Of a stretch of 33,357 bases of DNA, positions 1,622-33,357 are shown in pieces. A program made the translations under genes and the position numbers. Below the pieces are notes generated by a model, which was not told the DNA's origin, searched no databases, and saw nothing but the letters and a program-made list of their open reading frames with translations. Every line of letters begins with the position of its first letter. The stretch's first letter is position 1. This DNA is from an uncultured Eubacteriales bacterium. Lineage in GTDB: Bacteria > Bacillota > Clostridia > Christensenellales > Pumilibacteraceae. The stretch spans positions 1 to 33,357 of the forward strand of contig CACZPH010000043.1 of NCBI GenBank assembly GCA_902783025.1. The letters run 5' to 3'.

Positions 1622-1655
1622 ATTTTGCGCTTTTGCGCGATATAAGGAGAAAAAT

Positions 1656-4717: not shown

Positions 4718-4736
4718 CATACGAAATAAGGTACGC

Positions 4737-4764
4737 AAAAAGCCCCGTTTACAGGGGCTTTTCG
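4737..4764. terminator. Bidirectional intrinsic terminator between convergent genes
   Basis: AAAAGCCCC and GGGGCTTTT form a stem with a 7-nt loop and flanking A and T runs on both sides. It can therefore stop the tcdA operon from the left and the minus-strand AraC gene from the right. Confidence 0.85.
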
Positions 4765-4797
4765 TTTACGTAAATAGTTTTTTGAGATCGTTTTGCG

Positions 4798-5571
4798 CTA
4801 AACGGGACTGTTTTTTCCTTGGTTTTTGCGATACGCCGACGGAGAGCAACCGAGTTTTTTTTCGAAAGCGCGCCGAAAAAAAGTCTGCGACTCGAAGCCG
4901 CATTTTTGCGCTATCTCTTCCACGCTCATGTCCGTTTCGCGGAGCATATAGCCCGCCGAAGCGAGCCGCAGATCGTTACGGTAAACTATCGGCGAAACGC
5001 CGTTTTCAGCCTTGAATACGCGGTAAAACCCCGGTTCGCTCATAGCGCACGCCTTAGCCAGCGCGCCGACGGGAGCGTTTGCGGCGGGATCGGACGAGAT
5101 CAACTCGAGAGCGGGGAGCGTGCGTTTTATCCCGGCTTTTTCGGCGTGCGAGTTGTTTACGAAAGCGGAAATTATCGAGAGCGCCGCCGAACAAGCGAAG
5201 AGCGGATCTTGCGCGTTTTCCCCTTCCGCAAACATCCTCGCCGCGTCCGGTATCTCGCAGGCGCGGAACCTTAGCCGATAGTCGCGTATAAGATCGGCCG
5301 TAGGCGCGAAATCGAAATGCATAGAGTGCATTATCGTGTTTTCTTCGTAGTACTCGCCCTTATACAAGCCGCCTTTTATTACCGCGAAACAATTGCCCGC
5401 GTTTGCTAGAGTGATAGTATCGTCGTGATAGAGCCGCACGCTTCCCTTTTCGAGATACGCTATCGAATAGAACGGGCGCGGAAGCCTCGAAAAGTCCTCG
5501 ATTCGGCGTTTGTCGTAGGTATAACGCTTGAATTGAAGGTGACCGAAAAGTCCGTTGCGTATTACGTCCAT
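4798..5571 (-). CDS. AraC-family transcriptional regulator (cupin sensor + double HTH)
   Basis: This 257-residue protein has an N-terminal cupin-like sugar-sensing half (about residues 10-90, with FAVIKGG and MHFDF strands). Its C-terminal AraC/XylS domain (about 160-255) holds two helix-turn-helix units. The second unit carries the signature spanning VEEIAQKCGFES..FFRRAFEKKLGCSPSAYR. It is transcribed away from the SDR/dehydroquinase-like pair starting at 5667. The two promoters overlap, so it probably autoregulates and activates that pair in response to a sugar-like ligand. The start ATG at 5571 has an AAGGAG site just upstream on the minus strand. Ligand unknown. Confidence 0.9.
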   Translation of the reverse strand: MDVIRNGLFGHLQFKRYTYDKRRIEDFSRLPRPFYSIAYLEKGSVRLYHDDTITLANAGNCFAVIKGGLYKGEYYEENTIMHSMHFDFAPTADLIRDYRLRFRACEIPDAARMFAEGENAQDPLFACSAALSIISAFVNNSHAEKAGIKRTLPALELISSDPAANAPVGALAKACAMSEPGFYRVFKAENGVSPIVYRNDLRLASAGYMLRETDMSVEEIAQKCGFESQTFFRRAFEKKLGCSPSAYRKNQGKNSPV

Positions 5572-5606
5572 ACTTGCTCCTTGATAGAATAGTGTCGGTT
5601 TTATAC

Positions 5607-5635
5607 AGTATAATATATTGCGTTTTGCAAGTCAA
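5607..5635 (-). promoter_or_regulatory. Promoter of the minus-strand AraC gene
   Basis: Read on the minus strand, TTGACT is followed by a 17-nt spacer and TATACT. The predicted transcript starts about 30 nt upstream of the ATG at 5571. Confidence 0.7.
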
Positions 5636-5647
5636 GCGTTATATAAT
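5609..5647 (+). promoter_or_regulatory. Overlapping promoter region for the SDR operon
   Basis: Two TATAAT boxes are present on the plus strand, at 5609-5614 and 5642-5647. The first lacks a recognisable -35 at normal spacing. The second has TTGCGT 18 nt upstream but would start transcription right at the ribosome-binding site (AGGAGGT, 5654-5660). A poor -35 fits activation by the divergent AraC protein. Two GCGTT words (5620-5624 and 5636-5640) lie 16 bp apart and could be its contacts. Confidence 0.4.
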
Positions 5648-5666
5648 CGAAGCAGGAGGTAGAATT

Positions 5667-6428
5667 ATGAATTTTTCGGGGAAAAACGCCGTCGTCACGG
5701 GCGCGGCGTCGGGTATGGGTTTCGGCACCGCCTTAAGACTCGCGCAAAACGGCGTCAACGTCGTTATGTGCGATATCAACAAAGCGGCGCTTGAAGATAA
5801 GGTAAAGGAAGTAAACGCTGTCGGTAAGGCGATCGGCGTGGTTACGGACGTGCGTGATTACGCTCAGGTGGTGCGCGCTTGCGACGAGGCGGTAAGAAAG
5901 CTTGGCTCGATAGATTATCTCGTTTGCTGCGCGGGCGGAAGCGCGAAACGCATTCTCAATTCGCCCGAAAGGTTTGAAGACACGCCCATCGAAGTTTTCG
6001 ACTGGGGCATCGACGTAAACCTCAAAGGCGCGTTTTACTTTGCCCACAGAGCCATGAAAGAAATGTCCAAGACCAAGTTCGGCTCGATAGTCGTGATGGG
6101 TTCGGTAAGCGGCATAGAAGGCGGCGAAGACGCTTCGTACGCCGTAAGCAAAAGCGGACTTATGTACGGACTTACGCGCTCGCTCGCAAAAGTGGGCGCA
6201 AAGTACAACGTGCGCGCCAATTGCGTCGCTCCGGGACCCGTTCTTACGCGCGACAGTATGAAATATATGAAAACGCTCATGAAGCGCGCCGCGGAGCCCG
6301 ACGAAATAATCAACGTTATCACGTTCCTTCTCTCCGACGAGGCTTCCGCGATAACGGGTTCGACGATGCTTGCCGATTGCGGCAGAATGCTCGCCGACGA
6401 CAGAGGATGGGGAGAGTATAGCAAATGA
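5667..6428 (+). CDS. Short-chain dehydrogenase/reductase (SDR, classical)
   Basis: ATG 5667 is chosen because a near-perfect AGGAGGT lies at 5654-5660; the open frame extends upstream into the promoter. The 253-residue protein is a classical SDR. It has the cofactor loop TGAASGMG (residues 11-18), an acidic residue after the second strand (MCDI, favouring NAD(H)), CCAG replacing the usual NNAG, and the catalytic pair Y158/K162 in YAVSK. The C-terminal half has the usual APGPV turn. It presumably oxidises a polyol or sugar hydroxyl in the cytoplasm. It overlaps the next gene by 4 nt and is probably controlled by the divergent AraC regulator. The substrate cannot be deduced; the dehydroquinase-like partner hints at a carbocyclic or keto-sugar intermediate. 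Confidence 0.9.
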   Translation: MNFSGKNAVVTGAASGMGFGTALRLAQNGVNVVMCDINKAALEDKVKEVNAVGKAIGVVTDVRDYAQVVRACDEAVRKLGSIDYLVCCAGGSAKRILNSPERFEDTPIEVFDWGIDVNLKGAFYFAHRAMKEMSKTKFGSIVVMGSVSGIEGGEDASYAVSKSGLMYGLTRSLAKVGAKYNVRANCVAPGPVLTRDSMKYMKTLMKRAAEPDEIINVITFLLSDEASAITGSTMLADCGRMLADDRGWGEYSK

Positions 6429-7204
6429 AAAAGTTTTCGGATTTTACGGAGCCGGTAATCTGCACGTTCGCTCAAGGCTATACGTGCGGTTCCCTCGCGG
6501 CTAAGATAACGCGCGCGCTTTACGACGGCACGGACGCGGTGGGAGTGTACTTTCATCACGTAAAGCAAGAGGAGCGCACGGACGAGAAAATCAAATACGT
6601 GTTCTCTCTTTGCGCCGACAGACCTATTTACGCGCTCTCGTACAGGGGAAGAGAAAACGAAGGTAAAACCGACGACGAGATAGGCGAAGAACTCGTGCGT
6701 CTGGGCGCTTTGGGCGCGTCGACGGTCGACGTAATGGGCGATCTTTTCGCGCCGTGTTTCAGTCAGCTTACAGACGACAAAGCGGCGATAGACAAGCAAA
6801 AAGACCTGATAAAGCGCATTCACGACACGGGCGCGGAAGTGCTTATGTCGAGCCATATCCAGAAGTATCTTTCCGCAAAGGAAGTCGAAGAAATGATGGC
6901 GGAGCAATATTCGCGCGGCGCGGATTTTGCCAAGGTGGTATCGCGGTGCGACAGCGAAGAAGAGCAGCGCGCGAGCATAGAGACGGTACTGCACCTTAAG
7001 TCTGTTTTCAAAGACAAACCGTTCCTTTTCCTTACCATGGGACCGTACACCCGCCTTCTTCGCCTTATAGGACCGCTTTTGGGGTGCAGAGTATGGCTCG
7101 CGGTCGACGATCACACGGACGGCGACACGATAGCCCAGCCGGATCTTAAGACGATCAAGCGTATCAGGGACTCCGTGGATTTAAGGCCGTACAAAAGATA
7201 TTAA
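6425..7204 (+). CDS. Type I 3-dehydroquinate dehydratase-like (AroD-fold) enzyme
   Basis: This 259-residue TIM-barrel protein aligns by eye with class I dehydroquinases. YRGRENEG matches the T-x-R..EGG region. H144 (in MSSHI) and K170 (in FAKVV) correspond to the catalytic His and the Schiff-base Lys. LTMGPYTRLLRL matches the MG..G..SR segment, and QPDL the PGQ loop region. The early ELR(I/V)D strand is replaced by VGVYFHH, so an acidic substrate-binding residue is lost. It may therefore be a divergent dehydratase or aldolase using a Schiff base on a related keto compound rather than shikimate-pathway AroD. It is translationally coupled (ATGA) to the SDR gene, which supports a catabolic role. 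Confidence 0.65.
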   Translation: MKKFSDFTEPVICTFAQGYTCGSLAAKITRALYDGTDAVGVYFHHVKQEERTDEKIKYVFSLCADRPIYALSYRGRENEGKTDDEIGEELVRLGALGASTVDVMGDLFAPCFSQLTDDKAAIDKQKDLIKRIHDTGAEVLMSSHIQKYLSAKEVEEMMAEQYSRGADFAKVVSRCDSEEEQRASIETVLHLKSVFKDKPFLFLTMGPYTRLLRLIGPLLGCRVWLAVDDHTDGDTIAQPDLKTIKRIRDSVDLRPYKRY

Positions 7205-7220
7205 GACAACGAAAAACTCA

Positions 7221-7244
7221 ATACGTATCGCGCAAAACGAAAAA
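7221..7244. repeat. Short intergenic repeat, copy 1 (ATACGTAT...GCAAAACGAAAAA)
   Basis: This 24-nt element matches 9273-9296 at 21 of 24 positions; only three central bases differ. In both places it directly follows, on the minus strand, the T-run of a terminator belonging to a minus-strand gene. Confidence 0.5.
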
Positions 7245-7277
7245 AAAACTCCGTAGCCGTAAGGCCGCGGAGTTTTT
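7245..7277. terminator. Bidirectional intrinsic terminator
   Basis: CTCCG (7249-7253) pairs with CGGAG (7268-7272). The stem continues through GCC/GGC around a GTAA tetraloop, with an A-run on the left and a T-run on the right. It separates the convergent dehydroquinase-like and glycosidase genes. Confidence 0.8.
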
Positions 7278-7286
7278 TGAGCGGAT

Positions 7287-9143
7287 TTACTTTTCGGTAA
7301 CGCGCAGGAATACCGCCGAGCAAGCGGGAACGGTTTTGCCGCCCGATATATATTCCGCGCTACAACCGCTGTTGAGGGAGTAGTTAAGTTCGCGCTCTTT
7401 GTTCGAGTAGTTTATCGCGCAGGCAATATATTCTTTTTTGCCGAGCGGATGAAGCGTTATGCAAACTTGCGGATCGGAAGAAACTATCGGGCGCTTTGCC
7501 AATATTTTTTTCGCGGCAAGCGCGTAAATTTTGCAGTATAGAGTATCGTTGAACGCTCCGGCGAGCGTAAACAGATCGCGCTCGAGCGGAAAATTGAGAA
7601 AATATATTTCGCCTTTGCCGTATTTATTGCGGCTCATGACTATGTTGCCGCACTCGTTTTGAGCCAAAACTTCCGCGCCGACGGAAACGAGCGACAATTC
7701 CTGATTTACGCGGTATTTTACGTCGCCGAAGGCAAAACGCGCGGTGTGTTCGCAGTTCGATCTTACGTTGCCTTCGCTCTTTAAGCCTATCGCGGACTGA
7801 AGGTCTATAAGGCTGCCGCCGTCGTAAGTTATCAGCACCGTAGCGCCTCTTTTCGCCTCGCCAAGAAGCGTATCCCACGCGCTCTTGCGCACTACCGCCC
7901 ACTTCGTAACGCCCGGCAAAACGTAAAAATCCGCCTTAGGGACGGGCTTTTCCGCGTCACCGCGCGCAAACTTGACGTCAAAGCCCGCTTGCTTGGCCAG
8001 CGTAAAGCAAACCGAGCCGTTTTGCCACTTGTCGCACTCGCCCAGAACGCACACCGCGTCCGTAAGGTGCGGCGGCATCGAGTCGAAAGGCAAAGCGTTT
8101 ATATCGCTTATGGTCGAGCGGATAGCCTCGCCCACGGGTTTTGGCTTGCGCTCAATGTCGAGGGCGCCGAGCGAACGCTCCATCAGCGACCACGAATACG
8201 GCGGAAAATCGAGTTTTTTATGCTCGGCGGCGCACCACCAATAGTGGCCCTTTATGTCGTTGGCAAGGCACGAATAGATGTTTACGCGCGCAAATAACGC
8301 CGCGTCTTCAAGACTTGCCGTCGTCTCGGTAAAGCAGTTTTGCTCCTGCATTATCACGTCCTTGCCGCCCAGATCGCGGTAAAAGGCGCTCTGCGCGGTC
8401 GGGAAGATAGTCGAGCGCATACCGCTGGGCGGATCGTAATCGTTGTTTATCGTAGGCGAAACGTACGGATGCGTCGTCATATAGTCGGTAAGTTCGCCCT
8501 GATCCTCTATCAGCCATTCGCCCTCGTCGGCGCCGAGTCCGTGCATACCCGAGCAGATCGGCCGCGTAGGATCCTGCGCGCGTATAGCGTTTTTGACGAA
8601 AGCCGTCCACGCGTACGCCTGATCGCGCGACGGGCACGGCGAGAGGCAGTTGCACTCGTTGCCAAGGTCCCACGCCTCGATATTTTTGAGGTCCTTTATT
8701 CCGCCCACAAAGCCGCGGATAAACTTTTCCGCCCACACGTACGCGAGCGGATCGGTAAAGAGATTGCGCCCGTCGAGCAAAGGCGGTACGAACATCCTGC
8801 CGCTCATCCAGCCGGTAAGAACGGAAACCGTGAGCGAAACGCCGCGTTTTTCGCACCGCGCGGCAAAGTCGCGGAACTCGGCTATCATGCTTTTGTCCAC
8901 GCCGTCGTCGCAGGCAAGCGGCTCGTCGGTGAGCGCGTTTACGTACTCGACTCTCTTCATGCGCCACCCATACAGCGCCTTGACGGGCTGAAAATCCCGC
9001 CAGCACGGGAAAACGCGCAGATGTTTTACTCCGAGCGCGGCGATAGCGTCAAGGTCGGCGTCGATAACGGCGCGGTCGTAACGCTTCCACATTTCGGTCC
9101 CGTGCGCCGAATCCCAGTAATTAAGTCCGATACAAAAGTCCAT
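7287..9143 (-). CDS. Clan GH-A glycoside hydrolase with C-terminal amidotransferase-like domain
   Basis: This 618-residue protein has a (beta/alpha)8 glycosidase barrel at about residues 1-350. The acid/base E163 lies in WDLGNE, and the candidate nucleophile E267 in IMQEQN, the two-glutamate layout of retaining clan GH-A enzymes (GH5/GH42-like). Residues about 360-480 (FYVLPGV.., ATVLITYDGG) resemble the class I amidotransferase-like trimerisation domain of GH42-type beta-galactosidases. A small beta domain closes the protein. There is no signal peptide, so it likely cleaves imported oligosaccharides. ATG 9143 has GGAGAGG upstream and its own promoter. The exact GH family and sugar specificity cannot be fixed by eye; beta-mannosidase and beta-galactosidase are both possible. 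Confidence 0.75.
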   Translation of the reverse strand: MDFCIGLNYWDSAHGTEMWKRYDRAVIDADLDAIAALGVKHLRVFPCWRDFQPVKALYGWRMKRVEYVNALTDEPLACDDGVDKSMIAEFRDFAARCEKRGVSLTVSVLTGWMSGRMFVPPLLDGRNLFTDPLAYVWAEKFIRGFVGGIKDLKNIEAWDLGNECNCLSPCPSRDQAYAWTAFVKNAIRAQDPTRPICSGMHGLGADEGEWLIEDQGELTDYMTTHPYVSPTINNDYDPPSGMRSTIFPTAQSAFYRDLGGKDVIMQEQNCFTETTASLEDAALFARVNIYSCLANDIKGHYWWCAAEHKKLDFPPYSWSLMERSLGALDIERKPKPVGEAIRSTISDINALPFDSMPPHLTDAVCVLGECDKWQNGSVCFTLAKQAGFDVKFARGDAEKPVPKADFYVLPGVTKWAVVRKSAWDTLLGEAKRGATVLITYDGGSLIDLQSAIGLKSEGNVRSNCEHTARFAFGDVKYRVNQELSLVSVGAEVLAQNECGNIVMSRNKYGKGEIYFLNFPLERDLFTLAGAFNDTLYCKIYALAAKKILAKRPIVSSDPQVCITLHPLGKKEYIACAINYSNKERELNYSLNSGCSAEYISGGKTVPACSAVFLRVTEK

Positions 9144-9173
9144 TTTCCTCTCCCGAAAAACTGATTTGTAATT

Positions 9174-9202
9174 ATTTTAGCGTTTTTTCGCGCAATAGTC
9201 AA
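9174..9202 (-). promoter_or_regulatory. Promoter of the GH-A glycosidase gene
   Basis: On the minus strand TTGACT is followed by a 17-nt spacer and TAAAAT, giving a leader of about 25 nt that contains the GGAGAGG ribosome-binding site. The gene is therefore an independent unit downstream of the oxidoreductase/isomerase terminator. Confidence 0.7.
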
Positions 9203-9272
9203 CACTTTCGGCGTATTGTCGCGGCTTAAGTATATTTTTGTCCTCTACCGCGCAAAAAAGCGCGAAAACCCG

Positions 9273-9296
9273 ATACGTATGCGGCAAAACGAAAAA
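9273..9296. repeat. Short intergenic repeat, copy 2
   Basis: Second copy of the element at 7221-7244 (21/24 identical). It abuts the terminator stem at 9297, so its GAAAAA end supplies the U-run on the minus strand. A shorter relative (ATACGTATCGC) occurs at 12545-12555. Confidence 0.5.
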
Positions 9297-9320
9297 TCCC
9301 CGCAAAAAGCGGGGAAAATT
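9297..9320 (-). terminator. Intrinsic terminator of the oxidoreductase/sugar isomerase operon
   Basis: TCCCCGC, a five-A loop and GCGGGGA form a 7-bp stem. On the minus strand the stem is followed by TTTTTCG. It lies immediately after the stop of the sugar isomerase-like gene. Confidence 0.85.
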
Positions 9321-10163
9321 TTACAGATATTTTTTGATAAACTCGACCGCTTTGACGATATCCTTTTCGGGATCGTCGCCGCACTCGCGCTCGATGGTAA
9401 GGAATCCGTCGTAGCCGATCTCCTTGAGCGCTTTGACGTAGTTTTCGAAGTCGACGTCGCCTTCGCCGAGCGGGGTTTCGAGATACGTGCCGCGCACGCC
9501 CTTAGCCGGCGGCTGACCTTCGACGTACTCGCCGTAAACTTCCGCCGCGGGCACGGGAACGAGGTTTTTGCCGTCCTTAAGGTGCGTATGAACGATGTAG
9601 TCCTTGAGCATATACACCGCTTCGACCGCGTCCTGGCGCGTAACCATCGTAAAGTTGGCGGGATCGAGGTTTACGCCGACGCCGCCTTTTGTCGCGGACA
9701 CGAAGCCGAGCAGAGTTTTCGCGTCTTCGGGGCCCGTCTCGATAGCCAGAGTCACGCCCTTGCTCATAGCGTATTTGCCGCACTCGGTGAGCGCGCGGAG
9801 CATAACGCCGTAGCGCGGGTTGGCGGGATCGGACGGAATAACGCCTATATGCGTCGTCACAACCTTAGCGCCGAACTCCACCGCAAGGTCGACGATAGCT
9901 TTCGTTTTCTCGACTCTTTCGGCGTTGTCGGACTCCTTTTGGAAGCCGTACCCGCCCATATCTCCGCACAGCGCGCTGACAACCAACCCGCAATCGGAGA
10001 GAAGTTTTTTGTAAAAGTCCTTTTGTTCGCTCGTCAGCGTCCAGGGCGAAAAAGCGCCTTTGGTCGCGTAGATCTGAACGCCGCTGAGTCCGAGCGCCGC
10101 GGCCTTGCGGATCGCGGTTTCGGTATCGGTCTTAAAGCAATCTGTAATTACGCCTATTTTCAT
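9321..10163 (-). CDS. Sugar phosphate isomerase/epimerase (xylose isomerase-like TIM barrel)
   Basis: This 280-residue protein of the AP-endonuclease-2/xylose isomerase-like superfamily (IolE/Hyi/tagatose-epimerase relatives) shows the expected metal-ligand strands. These are AIETGPE (Glu), GVNLDPAN (Asp), HTHLKD (His) and the final TIERE (Glu). Such enzymes isomerise, epimerise or dehydrate sugars and inosose using Mn or a similar metal. It is cytoplasmic. The AGGAG site overlaps the stop of the upstream Gfo/Idh gene (10 nt gap), so the two are co-transcribed and terminate at 9297. The pair resembles inositol and 3-keto-sugar catabolic modules. The exact substrate is unknown. Confidence 0.85.
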   Translation of the reverse strand: MKIGVITDCFKTDTETAIRKAAALGLSGVQIYATKGAFSPWTLTSEQKDFYKKLLSDCGLVVSALCGDMGGYGFQKESDNAERVEKTKAIVDLAVEFGAKVVTTHIGVIPSDPANPRYGVMLRALTECGKYAMSKGVTLAIETGPEDAKTLLGFVSATKGGVGVNLDPANFTMVTRQDAVEAVYMLKDYIVHTHLKDGKNLVPVPAAEVYGEYVEGQPPAKGVRGTYLETPLGEGDVDFENYVKALKEIGYDGFLTIERECGDDPEKDIVKAVEFIKKYL

Positions 10164-12635: not shown

Positions 12636-14816
12636 TTACTTAAAGAAATCTTCGAGCAGCTTGTATTCGGTTTTGTCCTCGCTGAATTTGTGGAACATAC
12701 TTGTCGTAATATACAATTCTTTGTCGATGCCCGACTCGTCCAAAACGACGAATGCGCTATTGACTTTGTACTTTTCGGCGTATGCTTTGAGCGCGTTGAA
12801 TTTTTTCTCGGAAAACTCGTCGATATTTGCGTTTGTGCCTAAGCGGTTTTCGCCGCCTTTCGTTTCTATGATCCACAATTTACCCTTAACGCCCAAAATA
12901 TAATCCGGATAAAAAAGTTTTTGTTTACCGTAGTCGTTGGTGTACAGTATCGAGAAGTAATCGCTGCCTTTGTCGCCGTTTTTGTAAAACCAGTCGGAAT
13001 GCTTTTCGCACCATTTTTCAAATTCGAGTTCGACTTCGGACTTCCCTGCACGACTTAAAACGTATCCGTCGTACACGTTGCGTTTGCATTCTTTGAACGA
13101 TTCGGGCGCATAAATAATGACGTTTTCGCGCGGGAACACAAAAGAAGCGGTATTCTTTTGAGTTGTCGAAATCGTCGTCTGCACGGACGAGTACGAAGAC
13201 TCGCGGAAATCGTTTTTGAGCAGAGTGCGGTTGTTGATAACGAAAGGATAGACGTCGCGAGTAGATAGCGTAAGGAGTTTTCCGGTATATTTTTGCGTGC
13301 TGTCAAAAAGCCTGCGCAAAATTATTATCATACTGTCGTATTTTACGCCCGCCGCGTCGGCAATATCCGCAACGCATTGATGAAAAAGTCTTCCGTCGCT
13401 GTGCGTATTGAGTTCGCGGCTCAAATTGAGTTCGTGGACGTTTTCGGTATTGTCGGTGACCGTCATCACACCCTGTTGAGCGGAGTAGAGTATATCTTTG
13501 CTGAATTTATACCCGCCTTTTGCTTCAAGTGCGCTTTGGTTATGTTCCGCTTTTGCGCCCAAACCGTATTTTTTTACAAAGAACTTTGTCGCCGTTTCGA
13601 GAATCTGGACGGGATCGTTTTCGACAAACGAAACGGATTTTAATTCTTTCGTGAGTTTGAAATCGTAGAAATCCTTTTTTAAGAAAACTTTTTTTGCCTC
13701 AAATGCACCACTTTCGCGTTTAGCGTATTCGATAAACGCTCTGTCAAGCGTATATATGTAGCAATAGTCAAGAAATTGATTGCCGTAATGTTTCGCTTCG
13801 GGCATACGCCTTATGCGCCCTATCGTCTGTATCTCAAAGGTTTCGGACATATTGTCGCGCATTTTTACGAGGATTTGCGCGCGCGGGCAATCCCAACCGA
13901 GCGCGACGGCTTGCTTAATGATTATTGCAACGGGCAAAGCCGTAGGCGAATCAATTTGTTCGAGGTTTTCTTTTTGGTCGCTGAGCCATACCGCAAGGCG
14001 CTTGTTAAAGTATGTAATTCCTTTTTCTTCGAGAATCTTTTCGATTTTTGCTTGCTTGTCTTCCGACTTGTTCGGTATTTGAATTACGATAAGAGGGTTT
14101 ACTTTACTGCCGGCGTTTTTATATTCTTCGGCAAGCTTCTTTTGTTTGTCGAGCGCAAGAGAAAGTAAGTATTCTTCTTCGTTTTCGATCGTGGTATTTT
14201 GTGGGATTCCATCGTTGATATAAATCGCCTTTTTGATCAGCCCTTCGGCAATTACGTCTTCCTCTGGAATATCGATAAGCGTAGCGTTTCCGTAATTGAG
14301 CGGAGTAGCGGACGCGCGAATTATCTTGTCCGCCTTAAATAGCGCAATTATCTCGTTAGCTTTATACGTGTTGTTAAAGTGCTGTTCGTCAACGATAATA
14401 ATAAAGTGTAAGCCGTTTAGTTGCGCGGCTTTTATTCGATCAAGCAAGTTTTCGTGTTCGCTGTCCTGTATCGCGTTGTTTTTCTTGTTGGTAACCATTT
14501 CCCAGTTAATAAAAGCAACATCGTTTTCTTCAAAGCCCGCCGTCAAAACATCGGCGAGCAATTTTGTCTGCGCCGAGTGGATATACGTATCCATTTTTGC
14601 TTTCGACTGGTCTTCGAGATTGCCTTTTCCGGGCGTAAACCAAACGAAACAGGTCTGCGCATTTTCTTTGAGATACCTATCGATAAAGTGCGTAAGAATT
14701 ATCGTTTTGCCGCTGCCCGTGCAACTTTTCAAAACGATTTCTTTTTTGGGTTTTCTGCAAGCGGCATTTAAGTCCGCTATCGCTTGCATTTGAAAATTTT
14801 TAAGAGTCAGATTCAT
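12636..14816 (-). CDS. res: Type III restriction enzyme, Res (helicase-nuclease) subunit
   Basis: This 726-residue protein is an SF2 DEAD-like helicase joined to a C-terminal nuclease. It shows Walker A CTGSGKT (32-38), Walker B DEQH (143-146), SATP near 168-171 and motif VI QTIGRIRR. Near the C-terminus is a PD-(D/E)xK nuclease core with D638 (in FYPDY), E651 and K653 (in IETKGG). It is shorter than the EcoP15I-type Res (about 970 residues), so linker or accessory regions are reduced. With Mod it would cleave DNA after ATP-driven translocation. The ATG overlaps the end of the upstream membrane-protein gene by 17 nt and has GGAGAAA nearby. Codon style matches the host chromosome, unlike the two genes upstream. 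Confidence 0.88.
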   Translation of the reverse strand: MNLTLKNFQMQAIADLNAACRKPKKEIVLKSCTGSGKTIILTHFIDRYLKENAQTCFVWFTPGKGNLEDQSKAKMDTYIHSAQTKLLADVLTAGFEENDVAFINWEMVTNKKNNAIQDSEHENLLDRIKAAQLNGLHFIIIVDEQHFNNTYKANEIIALFKADKIIRASATPLNYGNATLIDIPEEDVIAEGLIKKAIYINDGIPQNTTIENEEEYLLSLALDKQKKLAEEYKNAGSKVNPLIVIQIPNKSEDKQAKIEKILEEKGITYFNKRLAVWLSDQKENLEQIDSPTALPVAIIIKQAVALGWDCPRAQILVKMRDNMSETFEIQTIGRIRRMPEAKHYGNQFLDYCYIYTLDRAFIEYAKRESGAFEAKKVFLKKDFYDFKLTKELKSVSFVENDPVQILETATKFFVKKYGLGAKAEHNQSALEAKGGYKFSKDILYSAQQGVMTVTDNTENVHELNLSRELNTHSDGRLFHQCVADIADAAGVKYDSMIIILRRLFDSTQKYTGKLLTLSTRDVYPFVINNRTLLKNDFRESSYSSVQTTISTTQKNTASFVFPRENVIIYAPESFKECKRNVYDGYVLSRAGKSEVELEFEKWCEKHSDWFYKNGDKGSDYFSILYTNDYGKQKLFYPDYILGVKGKLWIIETKGGENRLGTNANIDEFSEKKFNALKAYAEKYKVNSAFVVLDESGIDKELYITTSMFHKFSEDKTEYKLLEDFFK

Positions 14817-15684
14817 CGGTTTTCTCCATCATTTTTTCAATTTGGTTATATTTTTCTATTGCTTCTTCTCTTATTTGTTGGTTTGATTTTATTATATTTT
14901 TCTTTTTATTTTCACATATTATTTCTTGTTCAATCAGCGCAATTCTCATTGTTTGATTCAATTGCTCGTTATTCATTTTTATCTGTGAAGCAAAAAGTAT
15001 TTTCCTTAAGATAGGATCAACAACATCTTGGAAGATAGTAAATAGAATATGTGAAATTAGATAGATATTGAAAATCACAATAATTTTTAAAAATACTGAT
15101 ATATCATTACTAATTAAGCATAACGGAGTTGTGTAGACCAAGCATCCTAATGAGATGATAAAAAGAAAAATAATGATTCCAAAATTTATGTTATGCTTAT
15201 AGTAAGATAACGACTTTTCAATATCCATAATTCTATCAAAACCAATACCATCGGAATTGGGTTTATTGTCAATATATTTTGAAACAACAACATGCCATAT
15301 TACAAAAAGAGAGATAGCAACTGCAAATATTGTCCACTCAATTTCAATTAGTTTTATTGTTGAAGATATCGGCAATAAAGGAGCTTGTCCAATTGCGGCG
15401 GAAGCAGCAATGATAAGTAAAATAATTGTATAAGTTATTAGTTTTGCACCTGTAAATATTGAGTTGCGTTTAACTAGATAAATGATATAACTTATTAGAT
15501 TTACAACTCCAAAAAATACGCTGATTATTATTGATACTATGGAAGCATTAAGAGCATCAATAAGTCCTTGTTTGTAAAAACCGCTTAAAGCAAACACACC
15601 GAGAAGAAAGCCTAAAAATGACGAAATTAAGAACACAAAAATGTACTTTAATAAAGTTTTTATAATTTTTTTTCTTGTCTGCAT
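14800..15684 (-). CDS. Unrecognised six-TM membrane protein inside the type III R-M operon
   Basis: I do not recognise this 294-residue family. Hydrophobic segments lie at about residues 14-34, 47-71, 82-104, 117-137, 166-191 and 197-219. A polar, helical and probably coiled-coil tail follows at 229-294, rich in Gln, Glu, Asn and Lys (QIKMNNEQLNQTM.., NQIEKMMEK). The first residues (TRKKIIK) suggest a cytoplasmic N-terminus and, with six segments, a cytoplasmic tail. Composition is markedly AT-richer than mod ends and res. It is coupled to res by a 17-nt overlap and has GGAGAAG about 10 nt before the ATG. Position suggests an accessory or effector function of the R-M locus; no catalytic motif is visible. 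Confidence 0.75.
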   Translation of the reverse strand: MQTRKKIIKTLLKYIFVFLISSFLGFLLGVFALSGFYKQGLIDALNASIVSIIISVFFGVVNLISYIIYLVKRNSIFTGAKLITYTIILLIIAASAAIGQAPLLPISSTIKLIEIEWTIFAVAISLFVIWHVVVSKYIDNKPNSDGIGFDRIMDIEKSLSYYKHNINFGIIIFLFIISLGCLVYTTPLCLISNDISVFLKIIVIFNIYLISHILFTIFQDVVDPILRKILFASQIKMNNEQLNQTMRIALIEQEIICENKKKNIIKSNQQIREEAIEKYNQIEKMMEKTDESDS

Positions 15685-15713
15685 GTTTTATTTTACTTCT
15701 CCATGTCCTATTT

Positions 15714-16700
15714 TTAGTTGGATTCTTCTTCCATTTCTTCGAGCCTATTTTTTTCTAAGAGATCAACGTATGATTTTATTTTAGTTGCTTTATCTATCAT
15801 CTTTGCAGGATAAGTGTAATTTAATATGTTGGTTGGTTGCGAAAAGACTATTCTATCAGTCTTTTCTACAACGTGTACAAAAAATTTAAGTGTACCGCTC
15901 GTGTATATGCCATGGATATTAACTGCAATATAATTTAGGGAAATAAAGATAGTATCTTTATCTTTGCAGATATCGGATATAAATTTTTCTTTTTCTTGAC
16001 TATTACTTATACTTGGGCTTGGAAACATTAAGAATTTACCAACACTATAAGTGTCTTTTGCAATCAAACTTAATTCGCCGGATTCCCCACGAGCTTTGTT
16101 GTTTATAAAAACATAGTCTTTTTCGAATATTGTTTTTTCTTTATTAGGTTGAGTGTTTATGTTTATAGATGTGAAACACACATCTTTTAAACTCGCTGTT
16201 TCTGAACAATTAAACACAAATGTTAGGTATACACCGTTAGTAAACCGTGCCGTAAATTCTTTATCGGAATACTCTTTTATGCTTTCATTGTATGTCATAT
16301 AGTATCTTAGGCAGGCTGAAGAGTTTTCCGTAATACATACATTGTCAACACTGGTTATTATTGGATCAAGTTTCTTTAAAATTATATTTGGAGCAGTACG
16401 GATTATTAAATCTTGCTTTCTATACTCTTTTTCTTCTTCTTGATACAATCTAGTTTGGCTTTGATTCTCTTCAAGGATTCGTTTATTATCTTTAGCAAGT
16501 TTATCAGCGGTTTCCTTGTGCCTTTCGGCTTGTATATACACCATTACGCCCAAAAATATTGTTGCTGCAGAACTTGCTGTAGAAAGAGATAGTGTCAACC
16601 AATCTTCTTGGCTAAAACTTATACCGCAAATAATAGCAAAGAGTGTAAAAACAATTAGCGGTATTAAAAGAAGTAAAAACAAAAAGTAAGCTTTCTTCAT
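15714..16700 (-). CDS. Unrecognised membrane-anchored protein with coiled coil and soluble domain, inside the R-M operon
   Basis: This 328-residue protein has two N-terminal hydrophobic segments (about 5-27 and 34-56) forming a membrane hairpin. A charged, probably coiled-coil stretch follows (about 57-95), then a beta-rich soluble domain (about 96-300) with several cysteines. A short acidic helix (NRLEEMEEES) ends the protein. The TM hairpin plus linker plus cytoplasmic domain layout is common in uncharacterised proteins of mobile and defence loci. The ATG lies 1 nt after the mod stop with AGGGGG as ribosome-binding site, so it is translationally coupled to mod. It is AT-rich like its neighbour at 14800, suggesting both were gained as a cassette. 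No enzymatic motif was found. Confidence 0.75.
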   Translation of the reverse strand: MKKAYFLFLLLLIPLIVFTLFAIICGISFSQEDWLTLSLSTASSAATIFLGVMVYIQAERHKETADKLAKDNKRILEENQSQTRLYQEEEKEYRKQDLIIRTAPNIILKKLDPIITSVDNVCITENSSACLRYYMTYNESIKEYSDKEFTARFTNGVYLTFVFNCSETASLKDVCFTSININTQPNKEKTIFEKDYVFINNKARGESGELSLIAKDTYSVGKFLMFPSPSISNSQEKEKFISDICKDKDTIFISLNYIAVNIHGIYTSGTLKFFVHVVEKTDRIVFSQPTNILNYTYPAKMIDKATKIKSYVDLLEKNRLEEMEEESN

Positions 16701-27246: not shown

Positions 27247-27281
27247 TTGACATAAAGTTGGCAACGACTATGTGGTATAAT
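27247..27281 (+). promoter_or_regulatory. Extended -10 promoter of the leader/tail-fibre/RHS locus
   Basis: TGG-TATAAT at 27273-27281 is an extended -10. A TTGACA at 27247-27252 is 23 nt away, too far for a normal -35, so either the extended -10 suffices or an activator compensates. The predicted start is near 27288. Confidence 0.55.
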
Positions 27282-27287
27282 GCTTGT

Positions 27288-27390
27288 ACAAAAAGGCCCG
27301 ACGGAAAGGCGGGTATGGGCCCGTACGCGCCGTTCCGTAAAAAAAAACAAGTTAGTGGGATCTCACGCCCGCGAGCTTGTTTTTTTGTCC
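27288..27390 (+). ncRNA. Structured leader RNA or small RNA ahead of the tail-fibre/RHS genes
   Basis: About 100 nt between the promoter and a strong terminator contain no convincing reading frame but two hairpins. Hairpin 1 (27301-27338) pairs ACGGAA with TTCCGT and GGCG with CGCC. It encloses a further GTAT/GTAC stem with a GGGCCC tip. Hairpin 2 is the terminator at 27341-27386. Since no other promoter is seen before the ATG at 27427, expression of the downstream genes would need read-through, so this could be an attenuator. A free-standing small RNA is the alternative. I recognise no known riboswitch or RNA family. Confidence 0.45.
27341..27387 (+). terminator. Strong intrinsic terminator / attenuator hairpin
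   Basis: Thirteen bases from 27341 (A-run then CAAGTT) pair with 27374-27386 (AGCTTG then T-run). GTGGG/CCCGC extends the stem after one mismatch. The T-run of seven completes a textbook intrinsic terminator only 40 nt before the next gene. Confidence 0.7.
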
Positions 27391-27426: not shown

Positions 27427-28569
27427 ATGCCAAACGAACAATTCAAAGACAGAATAAGCACGTATCCCAACCGTAGAAAAATCACGGTGGAAGGAGAAAC
27501 CATTGAAAACGGAAAGCGTGTATTGACCGCTTACGTCGAGATGGCGGACGAGCCGACGGAAGTAGGAACGCCCATCAGCGCGGCGACCTTTAACGGGTTT
27601 CAGAGTCAAATAGATACCGGACTCGCAAGTGTGTCCGCCGCCGTACAAAACGCCAATAACGCCGCGCAGAGTGCAAACGATGCAACAACCGCTGCCAATA
27701 CGGCTATTGCCAGCGTAAACGCCAAGATAGCGGAATTCGAAGACAGTCTCGAGCAGGTAAACAATGCCGCGGGCTATGCCGAAGAAGCCGGCGCGTATGC
27801 CGCGCAGATGAGTAGCGTTATTGACAGCGTAAACGACGAGGTAACCGCGGTAAGCGAAATACTCGAGCCGTTATTTGACGTAAACGTTACGGTAAACCAG
27901 TCCAACGACTACGTTATAGACCACGCGAAGAGGATAGCGCTCTCGAGACAAATGCAGGATCAGGAAGCTATCGTAAACGGCAGACAGTATATGCTTCGCA
28001 GTCCCTTTAACGGCAAGGGGAGTTTTCGTATCAGGTTTAAGGTAAGCGATTATACTACGTCTTCGGTAGACGCATATCCGAGTATATCCGTAATGTTTAT
28101 GGTTGACACAGCGGCATATATGGGATTATTCGTTTACCCGCTTTCTAATAGAGTACACGTAAGAAAGCAAGGTAACGGACATTCGTGGGAAAGCGTTGCT
28201 TCCGCCTCGTATACCGCCGGACTATTTGATCTTACCGGCGAAAACGTCATTGAGGCAAGCAGAAAAGTCGGCGAAAACGGGTACGTTTACGAACTCAGAA
28301 TAAACGGACAAACGGTTATCTCATACAGCGATACCGAAAGCTTTGTCGGCGAAAACTTTACATTCAAGTTCGGCTCTATCGGATCGTTTGCGACGTTTAA
28401 GGAGTGGACTTTCGTCAAGAATTTGTATCTCGATTCGGATATGACTTTCCTTAAGACGAGCGTAAACGCCCTTCTTACGCGGGTAAGCGCGCTCGAAGCC
28501 GAAAACGCAAGCCTTGCCGCGAGGGTGACCGCGCTTGAAACTTTGCATAACGAGGAAAACCTTGAGTAA
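27427..28569 (+). CDS. Phage tail-fibre-like protein with N-terminal adaptor, helical shaft, lectin-like domain and coiled-coil end
   Basis: This 380-residue protein has four parts. Residues 1-60 (FKDRISTYPNRRKI, then ADEPTEVGTPISAATFNGFQ) resemble the N-terminal attachment domain of Firmicutes phage tail and baseplate proteins. Residues about 60-145 are Ala/Asn-rich helices, probably a trimeric shaft. Residues about 150-335 form a beta-rich domain of concanavalin/LamG type (GSFRIRFKVSDY, YELRINGQTVISY). Residues about 345-375 are a heptad-repeat coiled coil (VSALEAENASLAARV). No other phage structural genes are in the window. It is 14 nt upstream of the RHS gene, suggesting joint function. 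CAGGAGC is the ribosome-binding site. Confidence 0.7.
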   Translation: MPNEQFKDRISTYPNRRKITVEGETIENGKRVLTAYVEMADEPTEVGTPISAATFNGFQSQIDTGLASVSAAVQNANNAAQSANDATTAANTAIASVNAKIAEFEDSLEQVNNAAGYAEEAGAYAAQMSSVIDSVNDEVTAVSEILEPLFDVNVTVNQSNDYVIDHAKRIALSRQMQDQEAIVNGRQYMLRSPFNGKGSFRIRFKVSDYTTSSVDAYPSISVMFMVDTAAYMGLFVYPLSNRVHVRKQGNGHSWESVASASYTAGLFDLTGENVIEASRKVGENGYVYELRINGQTVISYSDTESFVGENFTFKFGSIGSFATFKEWTFVKNLYLDSDMTFLKTSVNALLTRVSALEAENASLAARVTALETLHNEENLE

Positions 28570-28583
28570 AGGAGGAGAAAACT

Positions 28584-31500
28584 GTGGTTAGACAAATCGA
28601 AGAATTCGAATTAAAAGAAAACCACCCGATCAAGAACATAGAACTCGGCGATTACGTGACCGGAGCGGTAGATATTAAAACGGGCGACGCCCGTTTTAAT
28701 ATCCGCGTCGGCAAACCCTCATTGCTTACACCTATTGCACTAAACCTCATTTACAGCAAAAGGTGGAATGATTTTTACGATACGCTGAATTCTTTGGGGC
28801 TTCATATTAAGCTTTATGATTCGATGTTCGACCTAAACGTTGAAAACATAAGGTTCGGCAACGGGTGGAAAACCAATTACGAACAATATTTGATTTTGGA
28901 CGAAACGATGATTTCGGGCAAATACTATCGTTTGAGATATGTCAGAGCGGACGGTCAAATCGAATCATTTAAAATTGCGCTTTCGAACGAAAAGAACGGA
29001 ATAAAAACATATCATCAAATAGGCAGTGTATCTATCAAAACCGAAAACAATCAAACATATATCGTTGACTCCGACAAAAATCGTATTACGGTAGAATTGA
29101 TCGGCGCAAAGAGCATAAATAGCGTTGACATAGGCAATTATAATTCGTCGTGGGGGACTAAACCGATCGTTTTTAAGCTGACGACAAACGGCAATCAGGT
29201 CTTGTCTTTCGAGCCTGTTTCCGTGCGTACTTGCACAAACGGTCAAGACGGAACAGGTTGCGTGCTGTTTGTTTTGCGAAAGATATCGTTTCCGGGTAAT
29301 GAAATAACTGTTCGATACAGCGTAAATCTTAGTGCTGATTCGCAAAATAGCGCGAGGATGCTATCTTATGGAATTGCAAGAATTACGGATAAATATAATA
29401 ATTCAATGGTCTTTAACGCCGATTCGGTTACTTTACCGGGTAACGGAACGGATACGCCAACCGCATTGACTTTTGAGGACGGGCTATTGACCATAATCTC
29501 AAGCGGCTACCAGAAGGTAGGATTTAATTATCAGGACGGATTTTTAACTAAAGTTATCGACTATAATCTTAAAGCATTCGGCGCGCAATCCGGAGAAACC
29601 GATTTAACCTGGCAAGGAGAAAAGCTGGTACGAATTACAAGCGGCTCTTATCTGAAAAAAGTCGATAGTTCTTATCCGTTATACAGCTCGCCGAAAAAAA
29701 TTTTAAGCGATTGTAAGATCGATTATAACGACGTTACCACCGCCGTTTCGGAGACGGGTGAGCCCGATACGCTTTTGAGATTTGACGAAAGGGAAGAAAT
29801 TTCAGCGGTTTTTAAGAGATATAATAACGGCGACTATTATCCCGAGCAGTTTTTACGTATAACGTCACGTAACGATCCGACTTATCATGATGAGATCAAA
29901 ATCGTCGAAAACTTCAAGATATGCCGGCATCTCGGCGAAGGGCTGGTATTGGACGTTCCGCACAAGTACAAAACTCTTTCTTATTGCGGTGGCGGAGTAT
30001 ATTGCGGCGCGGCGGAGTGCGCAACCGAAGAGATCACGCGTACCGTTACTGTCAACGAAACCGCATTACCATGTGAGTTTGACGTTAACGCAATACGCTC
30101 CGCGACGGGTTTTGCCGCTTACGGCATAGTTCGCGGTCAGGCTTCGGCGGGAGCAAAGCTCAAACTTTCGGTTTGCGATAAGCGTTTAACCGACACGTGG
30201 AACGTGATCGACGAAAGCTATTACGATCTTCACCAAACGAGTGCGGGAGAAGAACAGCCATTCCTTCTGAGTCTTAATTCCCAAATGCTCGATGCGAATT
30301 ATTACGCAAAGTTCGAGATCGTCGGGAACGCGGACGTTATTCTTGTACGCCCGACGTTGAGAGCGGTACGCCCTGTTACCGAAATATATAATTCCAACAA
30401 TCTGCTTATCAGCAAAACAGATCCCGATCAAGGCACGCAAATAACCTACGAATACGATAAAATTTCAGGAAGAGCCGACGCTACGGAAATGGACGGACTC
30501 GAAGAATCGAGATTCGTGATTGTCGGAGAAACGGTTTCCGCGCTTACCAACGGTCTGAGATTCGATTTTCACAAATCTTACGCGTATAACGACAGACTCA
30601 ACAAAACGTCCGAGACTTATTACGTTTCAGGCACGCTTACCGAGGAAGAGACGGCGGTTACGCCCACGCAGACCAATCCGCTTATTACCGAATATACTTA
30701 TGACTCTGACGACAGGCTCATATATCAAAAGTCGTATTACTCGCATAATCTTACCAAAATCGTTACAAAGGAGTATTCGTACAACGCGGCGGGCAAACCG
30801 GCAAAGGAGAAAAACGAATTCGGCGAAGACGTCCTTACGTATAAATACACAGGCGACTATTCCGACGTATCTAACGTTACGTATTTTGACGGCGGAAAAG
30901 TGTTTTACGAATACAATGAAGACAAAGACGTTTCCGAAATATGGAGCCCCGATTGTTATTGCGAAAACTGCGACTGCGAAAATTGCGACAGGCAAAACAC
31001 AAACGGTTGCTCGCGTGTAGTAAATTCCAATTCCTTTGGTTATAGGTTCGATTATCCCGTTACCGTGGAGTCGGGAACGGCGCAAATCGATTACGAATAC
31101 GGTCCTTATGGTGTCAGAAAAGTTAAAATAAACGGCGCTACGGTATTCGAGCGACAAATAGCCGACTCAAGATCTTCCGGCGGGAATTTGGTTACCGAAA
31201 CTATCAAGCCCGCGCCGTCGTCCGGTTTGCAAGCGACGAAGGCGGTAACGACAGAAAACGGTTCCGGCGAAATTCTCGAAAACAAAGTTTTATACGGCGA
31301 CGAAGAGAAGAACAAAGAAAAATACAATTACGACAATATGGGCTTTGTCACAAGTAAGGAGTTATACGCAGACGGAGTACTCGTAGATACCGAAGAATAT
31401 ACTTATGACAACAAAGGCAGAACCAAGACGTTTTCGGAAGACGGCATAACGTATTCGTACGACTACGACAACAATGATAACGTAACCGCCTTTAAGGAAG

Positions 31501-33224
31501 AAGGGAACAGCATTTACGAGTATACGTATTCTAATCCCGACGGAAACAAATTAGCGCGGATAGACTATAACTCTGCGGTATTGCAAAGTATGAAGTACGA
31601 CGAATTCGGACGGCTCGTTCAGGTAGTCCATGACGGTGTGACGACGGATTATTATTACGAATCCAAACTCGACAGCTCGTCTCACTTTGTTAAGACGAGC
31701 AGTCGCGTTTCGCAGATCACGCATACCTTTGCGGCTAATCAGACCGTAACGTACGAATACCAATACGACGCTATGGGTAAAATAACGCAGGTCAAAGAAA
31801 ACGGTATCGTAAAGAGCAAGTACACTTATGACAAACTCAACAGGCTCGTTAAGGAAACGGGAGCTAACGAAAGCATAGGATACGCTTATTCGTACGACGA
31901 CTCCGGCAATATTACCAAGCGTACGGAATTGACGTCCTTTGGACCAAGAGACGAACTGCATTACGTATACGCGACCGAAGGCTGGAAAGACAGGCTTGTC
32001 GGAGTGTATACCGAACTCGGCAGGCCGCCTTACGGCAATACTCCTACCGAAGAGATCTCTTACGATAACTTAGGCAGACCTACCGTATACAGAGATAAAA
32101 CTACACGTTTTGATTATGCGGGAAGACTTGACAAAATAGGCGACGTAGAGTATACTTATGACTACAAGGGCAGAAGGGAAACCAAGACTTACGGTAATTC
32201 GCTCACGCAGTATTATTACATAGGAGACAAGCTCGACAGGATAGTAATAAACTCCGTAAATTACGAAGTAATATACGGCTTGAGCGGGGTAGTGGGCTTT
32301 GGCAACTACGACCTTGTCAAGAACGCTCTCGGAGACGTAACCGCGCTTGTGGATACGAGCGGACGTATTGTGGCGCGATACGTCTACAGCGCTTGGGGCG
32401 AAGTAAAGGTACTCAACCCCGACGGAACGGAGAATACCGATCCTACCTTTATAGGCAACGTAAACCCGTTCAGATACAGAACGTACCTGTATGACGAAGA
32501 AGCTAAGCTATACTATCTTACTACCAGGTATTATGATCCCGAACTAGGCAGGTTTATCTCTCCCGACGGCATAAGCTATCTTGATCCCAAGACCGTTAAC
32601 GGACTTAATCTTTACGCTTACTGTCTTAATAACCCCGTAATGGGCTACGATCCCGAAGGGACGTTTTTGATAGATGCTGCTATAACAGGATTTCTCGCTC
32701 AAGCCAATTTTTCCATAAGAGCATATGTATGTTTTGCTATTGCGGCAATTTGGGACGAAGATGTAAGAAAAGACATGAATGCTATACATTGGAATCCTTT
32801 TAATACGAACGAAGAAGAGGTCCTTAATTCGTCAAAGGTGTCTTTTTATAAAGGTGTCCCGGTAATAAGACAGGACGGAGATAGATCAGGAACATTCTTA
32901 GGGATTTTCTTATCAAGAAACGAAGGGGATAATAAGGATATTGTCAAGCACGAGTATGGTCATGCTGTGCATCAAATGATAATAGGTCCACTACCTTATC
33001 TTGTTCATGTTGGTATTCCTTCATATTATAAATGGGGACCATATAGAGATGAGGGTGATGATTACTATAATAATCCACAGGAAGCAATGGCGGATATCCT
33101 TGGAGGCTCTTCAAGAGCACATACAAAAACTGATACGGTAGCGGCTATAATATGGTTTATAGCCACAATAATATCACCGCTGCCATTGTCATATTTAATG
33201 TTTTTGATATTTCATACCAAATAA
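28584..33224 (+). CDS. RHS/YD-repeat polymorphic toxin with C-terminal HExxH metallopeptidase-like domain
   Basis: This 1546-residue protein starts at GTG 28584 behind GGAGGAG (28571-28577). The N-terminal third is a beta-rich RHS precursor region without a signal peptide. YD repeats run from about residue 620 to 1340 and end with RYYDPELGRFISPD, LYAYCLNNP and DPEG (1356-1359), the standard RHS core terminus. The 185-residue tip (about 1362-1546) is variable and DNA there becomes AT-rich. It holds HEYGH (1456-1460) and a downstream E1500 in QEAMAD, the ligand pattern of gluzincin metallopeptidases, plus hydrophobic segments at its start and end. Six cysteines cluster at 791-809. The core would encapsulate and release the tip as a toxin. 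The delivery route is not visible, although the tail-fibre-like partner suggests a phage-derived particle. Confidence 0.85.
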   Translation: MVRQIEEFELKENHPIKNIELGDYVTGAVDIKTGDARFNIRVGKPSLLTPIALNLIYSKRWNDFYDTLNSLGLHIKLYDSMFDLNVENIRFGNGWKTNYEQYLILDETMISGKYYRLRYVRADGQIESFKIALSNEKNGIKTYHQIGSVSIKTENNQTYIVDSDKNRITVELIGAKSINSVDIGNYNSSWGTKPIVFKLTTNGNQVLSFEPVSVRTCTNGQDGTGCVLFVLRKISFPGNEITVRYSVNLSADSQNSARMLSYGIARITDKYNNSMVFNADSVTLPGNGTDTPTALTFEDGLLTIISSGYQKVGFNYQDGFLTKVIDYNLKAFGAQSGETDLTWQGEKLVRITSGSYLKKVDSSYPLYSSPKKILSDCKIDYNDVTTAVSETGEPDTLLRFDEREEISAVFKRYNNGDYYPEQFLRITSRNDPTYHDEIKIVENFKICRHLGEGLVLDVPHKYKTLSYCGGGVYCGAAECATEEITRTVTVNETALPCEFDVNAIRSATGFAAYGIVRGQASAGAKLKLSVCDKRLTDTWNVIDESYYDLHQTSAGEEQPFLLSLNSQMLDANYYAKFEIVGNADVILVRPTLRAVRPVTEIYNSNNLLISKTDPDQGTQITYEYDKISGRADATEMDGLEESRFVIVGETVSALTNGLRFDFHKSYAYNDRLNKTSETYYVSGTLTEEETAVTPTQTNPLITEYTYDSDDRLIYQKSYYSHNLTKIVTKEYSYNAAGKPAKEKNEFGEDVLTYKYTGDYSDVSNVTYFDGGKVFYEYNEDKDVSEIWSPDCYCENCDCENCDRQNTNGCSRVVNSNSFGYRFDYPVTVESGTAQIDYEYGPYGVRKVKINGATVFERQIADSRSSGGNLVTETIKPAPSSGLQATKAVTTENGSGEILENKVLYGDEEKNKEKYNYDNMGFVTSKELYADGVLVDTEEYTYDNKGRTKTFSEDGITYSYDYDNNDNVTAFKEEGNSIYEYTYSNPDGNKLARIDYNSAVLQSMKYDEFGRLVQVVHDGVTTDYYYESKLDSSSHFVKTSSRVSQITHTFAANQTVTYEYQYDAMGKITQVKENGIVKSKYTYDKLNRLVKETGANESIGYAYSYDDSGNITKRTELTSFGPRDELHYVYATEGWKDRLVGVYTELGRPPYGNTPTEEISYDNLGRPTVYRDKTTRFDYAGRLDKIGDVEYTYDYKGRRETKTYGNSLTQYYYIGDKLDRIVINSVNYEVIYGLSGVVGFGNYDLVKNALGDVTALVDTSGRIVARYVYSAWGEVKVLNPDGTENTDPTFIGNVNPFRYRTYLYDEEAKLYYLTTRYYDPELGRFISPDGISYLDPKTVNGLNLYAYCLNNPVMGYDPEGTFLIDAAITGFLAQANFSIRAYVCFAIAAIWDEDVRKDMNAIHWNPFNTNEEEVLNSSKVSFYKGVPVIRQDGDRSGTFLGIFLSRNEGDNKDIVKHEYGHAVHQMIIGPLPYLVHVGIPSYYKWGPYRDEGDDYYNNPQEAMADILGGSSRAHTKTDTVAAIIWFIATIISPLPLSYLMFLIFHTK
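28671..28703 (+). repeat. Perfect 15-bp inverted repeat inside the RHS coding start
   Basis: GATATTAAAACGGGC, three bases (GAC), then its exact reverse complement, about 87 bases after the GTG start. The mRNA would form a very stable 15-bp hairpin with a triloop. It has no T-run, so it is not an ordinary terminator. Confidence 0.85.
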
Positions 33225-33255
33225 GTAAGTGGTCTATAAGGAGATGTTTTTGGAA

Positions 33256-33357
33256 ATGCCAAATGAAAGCAATCAAAATAAACGGGCAAATAAGTTAAAA
33301 TGGGTTATAATCGTTGGCTGTATAGTTCACATTTTGTTTTCCATAACAATCATAACA
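33256..33357 (+). CDS. Start of a small membrane protein, possible RHS immunity protein (runs off the window)
   Basis: A reading frame opens just after the RHS stop and stays open to the window end. The ATG at 33256 has AAGGAG (33238-33243) 12 nt upstream. ATG 33244 and TTG 33250 in the same frame are alternatives. The visible part is polar at first (MPNESNQNKRANKLK), then a hydrophobic membrane segment (WVIIVGCIVHILFSITIIT). Position directly behind a toxin tip and matching AT-rich composition suggest a cognate immunity protein, perhaps membrane-located to block a toxin with hydrophobic segments. Only 34 residues are visible, so this is tentative. Confidence 0.5.
   Translation, partial: MPNESNQNKRANKLKWVIIVGCIVHILFSITIIT

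Follow-up and report, generated by a model that had tools for sequence, protein, structure and literature searches.

The window, which is the whole stretch of DNA analysed here, is a complete contig of 33,357 bp (G000:C43) from a 1.72-Mb draft genome of the host, G000, that is 88.7% complete. At its right end a gene for a phage tail-fibre-like protein lies 5' of a gene for an RHS/YD-repeat polymorphic toxin, on the same strand and with a spacing of 14 nt, in an operon-like arrangement. The ORF coordinates bear out both ORFs and their spacing as given in the initial annotation, which had overlooked two further features: a terminator-like helix in the leader of the fibre gene, and the start of a probable immunity ORF at 33250 or 33256. 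Because the window is the entire contig, the downstream flank of the pair is unreadable; the upstream neighbour of the fibre gene is pckA, which is divergently oriented. The features of the locus are as follows.

27273..27281, + strand: candidate promoter with an extended -10 element, TGGTATAAT (TATAAT at 27276-27281), by consensus only
27283..27386, + strand: structured leader from folding, a hairpin followed by a terminator-like helix with a T-run (27376-27386), 5' of the fibre ribosome-binding site
27427..28569, + strand: phage tail-fibre-like gene, 380 aa, ATG start, from the ORF list
28570..28575, + strand: AGGAGG ribosome-binding site of the RHS gene in the sequence directly 3' of the fibre stop codon
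28584..33224, + strand: RHS/YD-repeat polymorphic toxin gene, 1546 aa, GTG start, from the ORF and from Pfam, NCBIfam and PDB comparison
32649..33221, + strand: variable C-terminal tip of the RHS protein, a putative zinc metallopeptidase by its motif (HEYGH ... NPQEAMAD), with hydrophobic segments
33250..33357, + strand: start (33250 or 33256) of a small membrane-protein ORF (LEMPNESNQNKRANKLKWVIIVGCIVHILFSITIIT...), by position a probable immunity gene, truncated where the contig stops

Elsewhere in the window, between 12636 and 18351, type III restriction-modification-like genes (Res and Mod) flank two ORFs (14800-16700) without Pfam matches. Contig C9 of the same genome holds an RHS-like scrap of about 43 residues (88% identity) beside a TrpB-like gene, which we take as a remnant.

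Both genes had been assigned to a single promoter and leader. The leader and a TATAAT with an extended -10 are present, but the nearest TTGACA, at 27247, lies 23 bp from the TATAAT and thus outside normal spacing, so that transcription of the pair from one promoter can only be called plausible. The 144-nt leader has a minimum free energy of -51.9 kcal/mol, with a z-score of -4.8 against shuffled sequence, and a search of the region against Rfam gave no family, only two sub-threshold chance matches. As pckA is divergent, the terminator-like helix can act solely on the fibre-RHS transcript, and the leader probably holds expression of the pair off in the manner of an attenuator. Terminator-like hairpins also occur immediately 5' of RHS genes in genomes G277 and G257.

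The downstream ORF matches TIGR03696 (E 6e-20) and RHS_repeat (E 2.6e-18), and comparison with the PDB finds solved RHS shells as its structural relatives. It has an RHS-associated core at about residues 1268-1359 and a DPxG-type junction between core and tip, DPKTVNGLNLYAYCLNNPVMGYDPEGT; by these sequence features the 1546-residue protein belongs to the RHS polymorphic toxins. A hydrophobic N-terminus is absent, in agreement with its earlier description as an RHS toxin that lacks a signal peptide. A Pfam scan of the whole protein returned only RHS_repeat and a weak DUF6531 match, with no PAAR, LXG/WXG or SpvB/TcdB leader domain. None of 50,697 phage records matched the first 600 residues, and the protein was not found in IMG/VR. 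The tip is 51% identical over 148 aa to that of a different RHS protein, which adjoins a holin gene in genome G040; the two proteins have this tip in common and differ at their N-termini.

The fibre protein, which likewise has no hydrophobic N-terminus, comprises a fibre-attachment-type domain (residues ~1-60), a long predicted helix (52-150), a middle region (165-335) and a C-terminus (325-379) predicted to be helical and to form a coiled coil. The shaft and coiled coil proposed for it thus reappear in the structure model, at low confidence. The N-terminal 60 or so residues gave weak matches to short phage sequences and aligned clearly once these had been collected. Fibre genes that begin with this domain occur in bajarodcaudo virus 3, two faecal phage contigs, five Clostridia prophage loci and contigs of IMG/VR; in these phages and prophages the gene has Tal or further tail genes on its 5' side and holin and endolysin genes on its 3' side, the canonical position in a tail operon. 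By this alignment the N-terminus is homologous to that of genuine phage tail fibres, and the assignment to a Firmicutes-phage tail-attachment domain was correct. Among the phage gene clusters examined, the domain was seen in siphophage-type or other long-tailed operons and in no podovirus-type cluster. The lectin-like nature given initially to the middle region finds no support: the region has no detectable relatives, comparison with Pfam, PHROG, NCBIfam and the PDB gave nothing worth naming, and model pLDDT there is about 25. An AlphaFold model of the fibre made without an alignment reached a pLDDT of 45 and was not used for fold searches; a model of the N-terminal 90 aa with seven sequences gave a hairpin and a helix, for which Foldseek found no significant match in BFVD or the PDB. 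Close relatives of the full-length protein are absent from the genomes, IMG/VR and phage records searched.

A profile of the N-terminal domain shows that it is rare in the host order, where it occurs in 10 of 396 genomes. Two of these (G332 and G361) carry it in ordinary prophages, and the other eight have tail-less fibre loci, nine of which were compared. At seven of the nine, namely the window, G031, G035, two loci in G277, G257 and G307, the fibre gene has an RHS gene on its own strand no more than 3 kb away; at the remaining two (G190 and G230) the contig stops within the locus. By contrast, RHS adjoins none of 16 phage or prophage fibre loci (Fisher p = 7.5e-5, a value that overstates independence because several of the phage comparison loci are close relatives of one another). 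RHS identity was assigned at each linked locus by HMM, except that in G031, where the core is cut off, it was assigned by YD repeats only. Two fibre loci were kept out of these counts: the G035 contig carries at its opposite end another copy, which is decayed, and L258 (G491) stands in an unclear context. The seven linked loci span six genomes and three families (f1, f20 and f29), and their fibre C-termini differ, being collagen-like in G277 and G257 and phage tail-protein-like in G307. Gene order also varies, with the fibre 5' of RHS in the window and G031 and elsewhere 3' of RHS and a putative immunity gene. The initial annotation's other option, a two-gene delivery unit of a new kind, is a possible reading of such loci. 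The initial annotation would have been undone by a failure of the two genes to co-occur in relatives; the pairing held.

Two observations at these loci may be added. Judged by eye, LexA-like and sigma-like ORFs stand 5' of the fibre-RHS locus in G031 (L146, 7679-9374), and a radical-SAM-like ORF stands between fibre and RHS. Small genes with a start of the type IxIxGN...VxxNGxxVW follow the fibre on its 3' side at L010 (14845), L146 (10393), L251 (9480) and L254, and are possibly a second tail-derived partner.

We tentatively favor the explanation that the locus is an RHS polymorphic-toxin locus in which a stand-alone phage tail-fibre gene has been co-opted as a targeting or assembly partner. 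The canonical place of the domain beside Tal and tail genes in true phages and prophages, and the confinement of same-strand RHS linkage to tail-less loci, both argue for it. A route out of the cell for a toxin that has no signal peptide is suggested by holin-like genes upstream of RHS in G040 (phrog_19508) and in G041, G001 and G002 (phrog_297 and phrog_2429), and one YD-repeat toxin complex, YenTc, is known to be set free by lysis through a holin system (PMC10847048). Against it, RHS occurs in 40 of the 74 genomes of the family and the fibre was found in only three of these 40, so that RHS is able to do without the fibre; fibre position varies, the middle domain is without detectable relatives, and there is no holin gene near the window pair. 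RHS is next to holin-like ORFs at L054, L011 and L071, where a holin family match was obtained for L011 only and not for L071, and in G061 a holin-like N-terminus is apparently fused to RHS, with an integrase-like and an excisionase-like ORF close by.

Under the co-opted partner model, the RHS protein would fold in the cytoplasm into a closed shell around its metallopeptidase-like tip, and the fibre would oligomerize through its helical parts, with the variable C-terminal regions providing surface binding. The attenuator-like leader would probably keep expression off. Fibre and RHS may leave together when a lysing subpopulation bursts, as the holin-type genes beside RHS in several relatives suggest; the released fibre would then aim RHS at competitors, and the small downstream membrane protein would confer immunity. 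A more specific version makes of the pair a two-part toxin system: the fibre, freed from phage tails, would dock on the RHS shell or assemble with it and direct it against other bacteria, perhaps on the domesticated podovirus-like particle that almost all members of the family encode. This version we consider rather doubtful.

It is somewhat unlikely that the pair is instead the relic of a prophage, in which RHS was cargo beside a tail fibre and only these two genes were left after decay, with no joint function. RHS genes of the family do occur in mobile or phage-like settings, with an integrase in G061 and a capsid element in G001 and G002, and one fibre copy in G035 is decayed. However, an intact prophage with both fibre and RHS was found at none of the 16 phage and prophage loci, the RHS N-terminus is unmatched among phage records, and no tail-less locus has kept a Tal-type gene. 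This type of gene survives beside RHS at seven loci, and in the window its frame is intact and the ribosome-binding site well placed.

The initial annotation had stated that no other phage genes are present. This holds for the ORF list of the window but not for the genome, since contig C110 of G000 carries a phage-like capsid element (L092, ~899-9346). The element is a compact podovirus-like cluster between housekeeping genes, with no integrase, and encodes TerL, a portal, a scaffold-like protein, the major capsid protein, a structural protein, and UviB-like and other holins; TerL is seen in relatives and is cut by the contig start in G000. Its portal gene is present, nearly always in single copy, in 68 of 74 genomes of the family and 236 of 396 of the order, and all eight genomes in which fibre loci are tail-less carry the element once. 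Among the public genomes with matches are the isolate Anaerocaecibacter muris and MAGs labelled Christensenella sp., from which we infer that the host order is the Christensenellales of GTDB. The element resembles gene transfer agents of the FpGTA kind and is a candidate for one across the order. It shares the compact TerL-portal-MCP podovirus-like operon of FpGTA I/II in Faecalibacterium, where the head genes are unlinked from those for the fibre/RBP and lysis (PMC12946183); that paper does not mention RHS.

This parallel is the basis of a further explanation, that the window pair supplies a receptor-binding fibre and a toxin to the element on C110, and that a particle or gene transfer agent carries RHS. 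RHS genes lie directly 3' of the structural and holin genes of the element in G001 and G002 (same genus) and in G041, and just upstream of it and divergent in G016 (L067, L065, L055 and L046); the chance of at least three of about 31 RHS loci falling after the element's holin is ~5e-5. The co-presence of element and tail-less fibre is weak evidence, as the element is so common. Moreover, in the window's own genome RHS does not adjoin the element, and in flanks of up to 10 kb around 80 element loci there is no fibre of the window type and RHS at only two (plus one truncated). Its link to the window pair stays hypothetical given these counts. As the fibre domain was, among phage clusters, seen in long-tailed operons and not in podovirus-type ones, this too speaks against the explanation, which we regard as unlikely.

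As its first option the initial annotation had offered that RHS could be loaded onto a tailocin or prophage tail with genes elsewhere, a suggestion in keeping with the tail-attachment type of the N-terminal domain. A profile of Tal, the usual neighbour of this domain, had no match in G000 or in the seven further genomes where the fibre locus is tail-less, and the window has no tail operon around the fibre gene. The profile matched the positive controls G332, G706 and G590 and missed the G361 prophage, which has a different type of tail; the search covers Tal-type tails alone. A siphophage tail of the Tal type elsewhere in the genome is therefore unlikely, with the proviso that G000 is incomplete, and loading onto a tail encoded elsewhere, which this search does not support, appears highly improbable. 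That fibre and RHS are chance neighbors is refuted in practice by the linkage counts, small though the number of loci is, since RHS density in the family predicts an RHS core within 5 kb at only ~0.7% per locus and the neighbors observed are all on the same strand.

Consideration of known systems helps to place the locus. With RHS/YD-repeat toxins (PMC3482391; shells 8h8a, 7q97 and Tse5 8cp6) it shares YD repeats, the RHS core, the DPxG-type junction and a variable tip, and it may share the downstream immunity gene as well; it differs from them in having no PAAR, LXG, SpvB or signal-peptide leader and in being paired with a separate fibre gene. The review PMC3482391 counts tail-fibre repeats among the stalk modules of toxin proteins and does not give them as a gene of their own. 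Clostridia siphophage fibres such as that of bajarodcaudo virus 3 (PQ006094) share the N-terminal domain, with the pattern [FW]xxR..YPGRxxL...EGTPLNAxTFN, after which a helical or collagen-like shaft often comes, whereas the window fibre has no adjacent tape measure, Dit or Tal, and its operon partner is RHS. The Tc toxin YenTc of type 10 secretion (PMC10847048) is likewise a large YD-repeat toxin that has no signal peptide, and holin-type genes lie near some relatives of the window RHS; unlike YenTc, the latter lacks a TcB-type domain in the Pfam scan and has no adjoining holin. In the MuF toxins of temperate phages (PMC5576092), too, polymorphic toxins of Firmicutes are linked with structural genes of phages; MuF proteins, however, belong to a packaging module inside prophages, while the partner here is a tail fibre outside any prophage. 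RHS toxin loci are themselves already known, and what is new is such a locus with a separate phage-derived fibre, a pairing for which we found no description in the literature searched.

In the order-wide element, gut Clostridia have a candidate gene transfer agent, and RHS lies beside it in four genomes. The recurrent tail-less fibre partner suggests a borrowed targeting part for giant RHS toxins in these bacteria. This matters for how RHS toxins that have no signal peptide exit Gram-positive cells and find their targets, a question for which the fibre provides a concrete and testable part.
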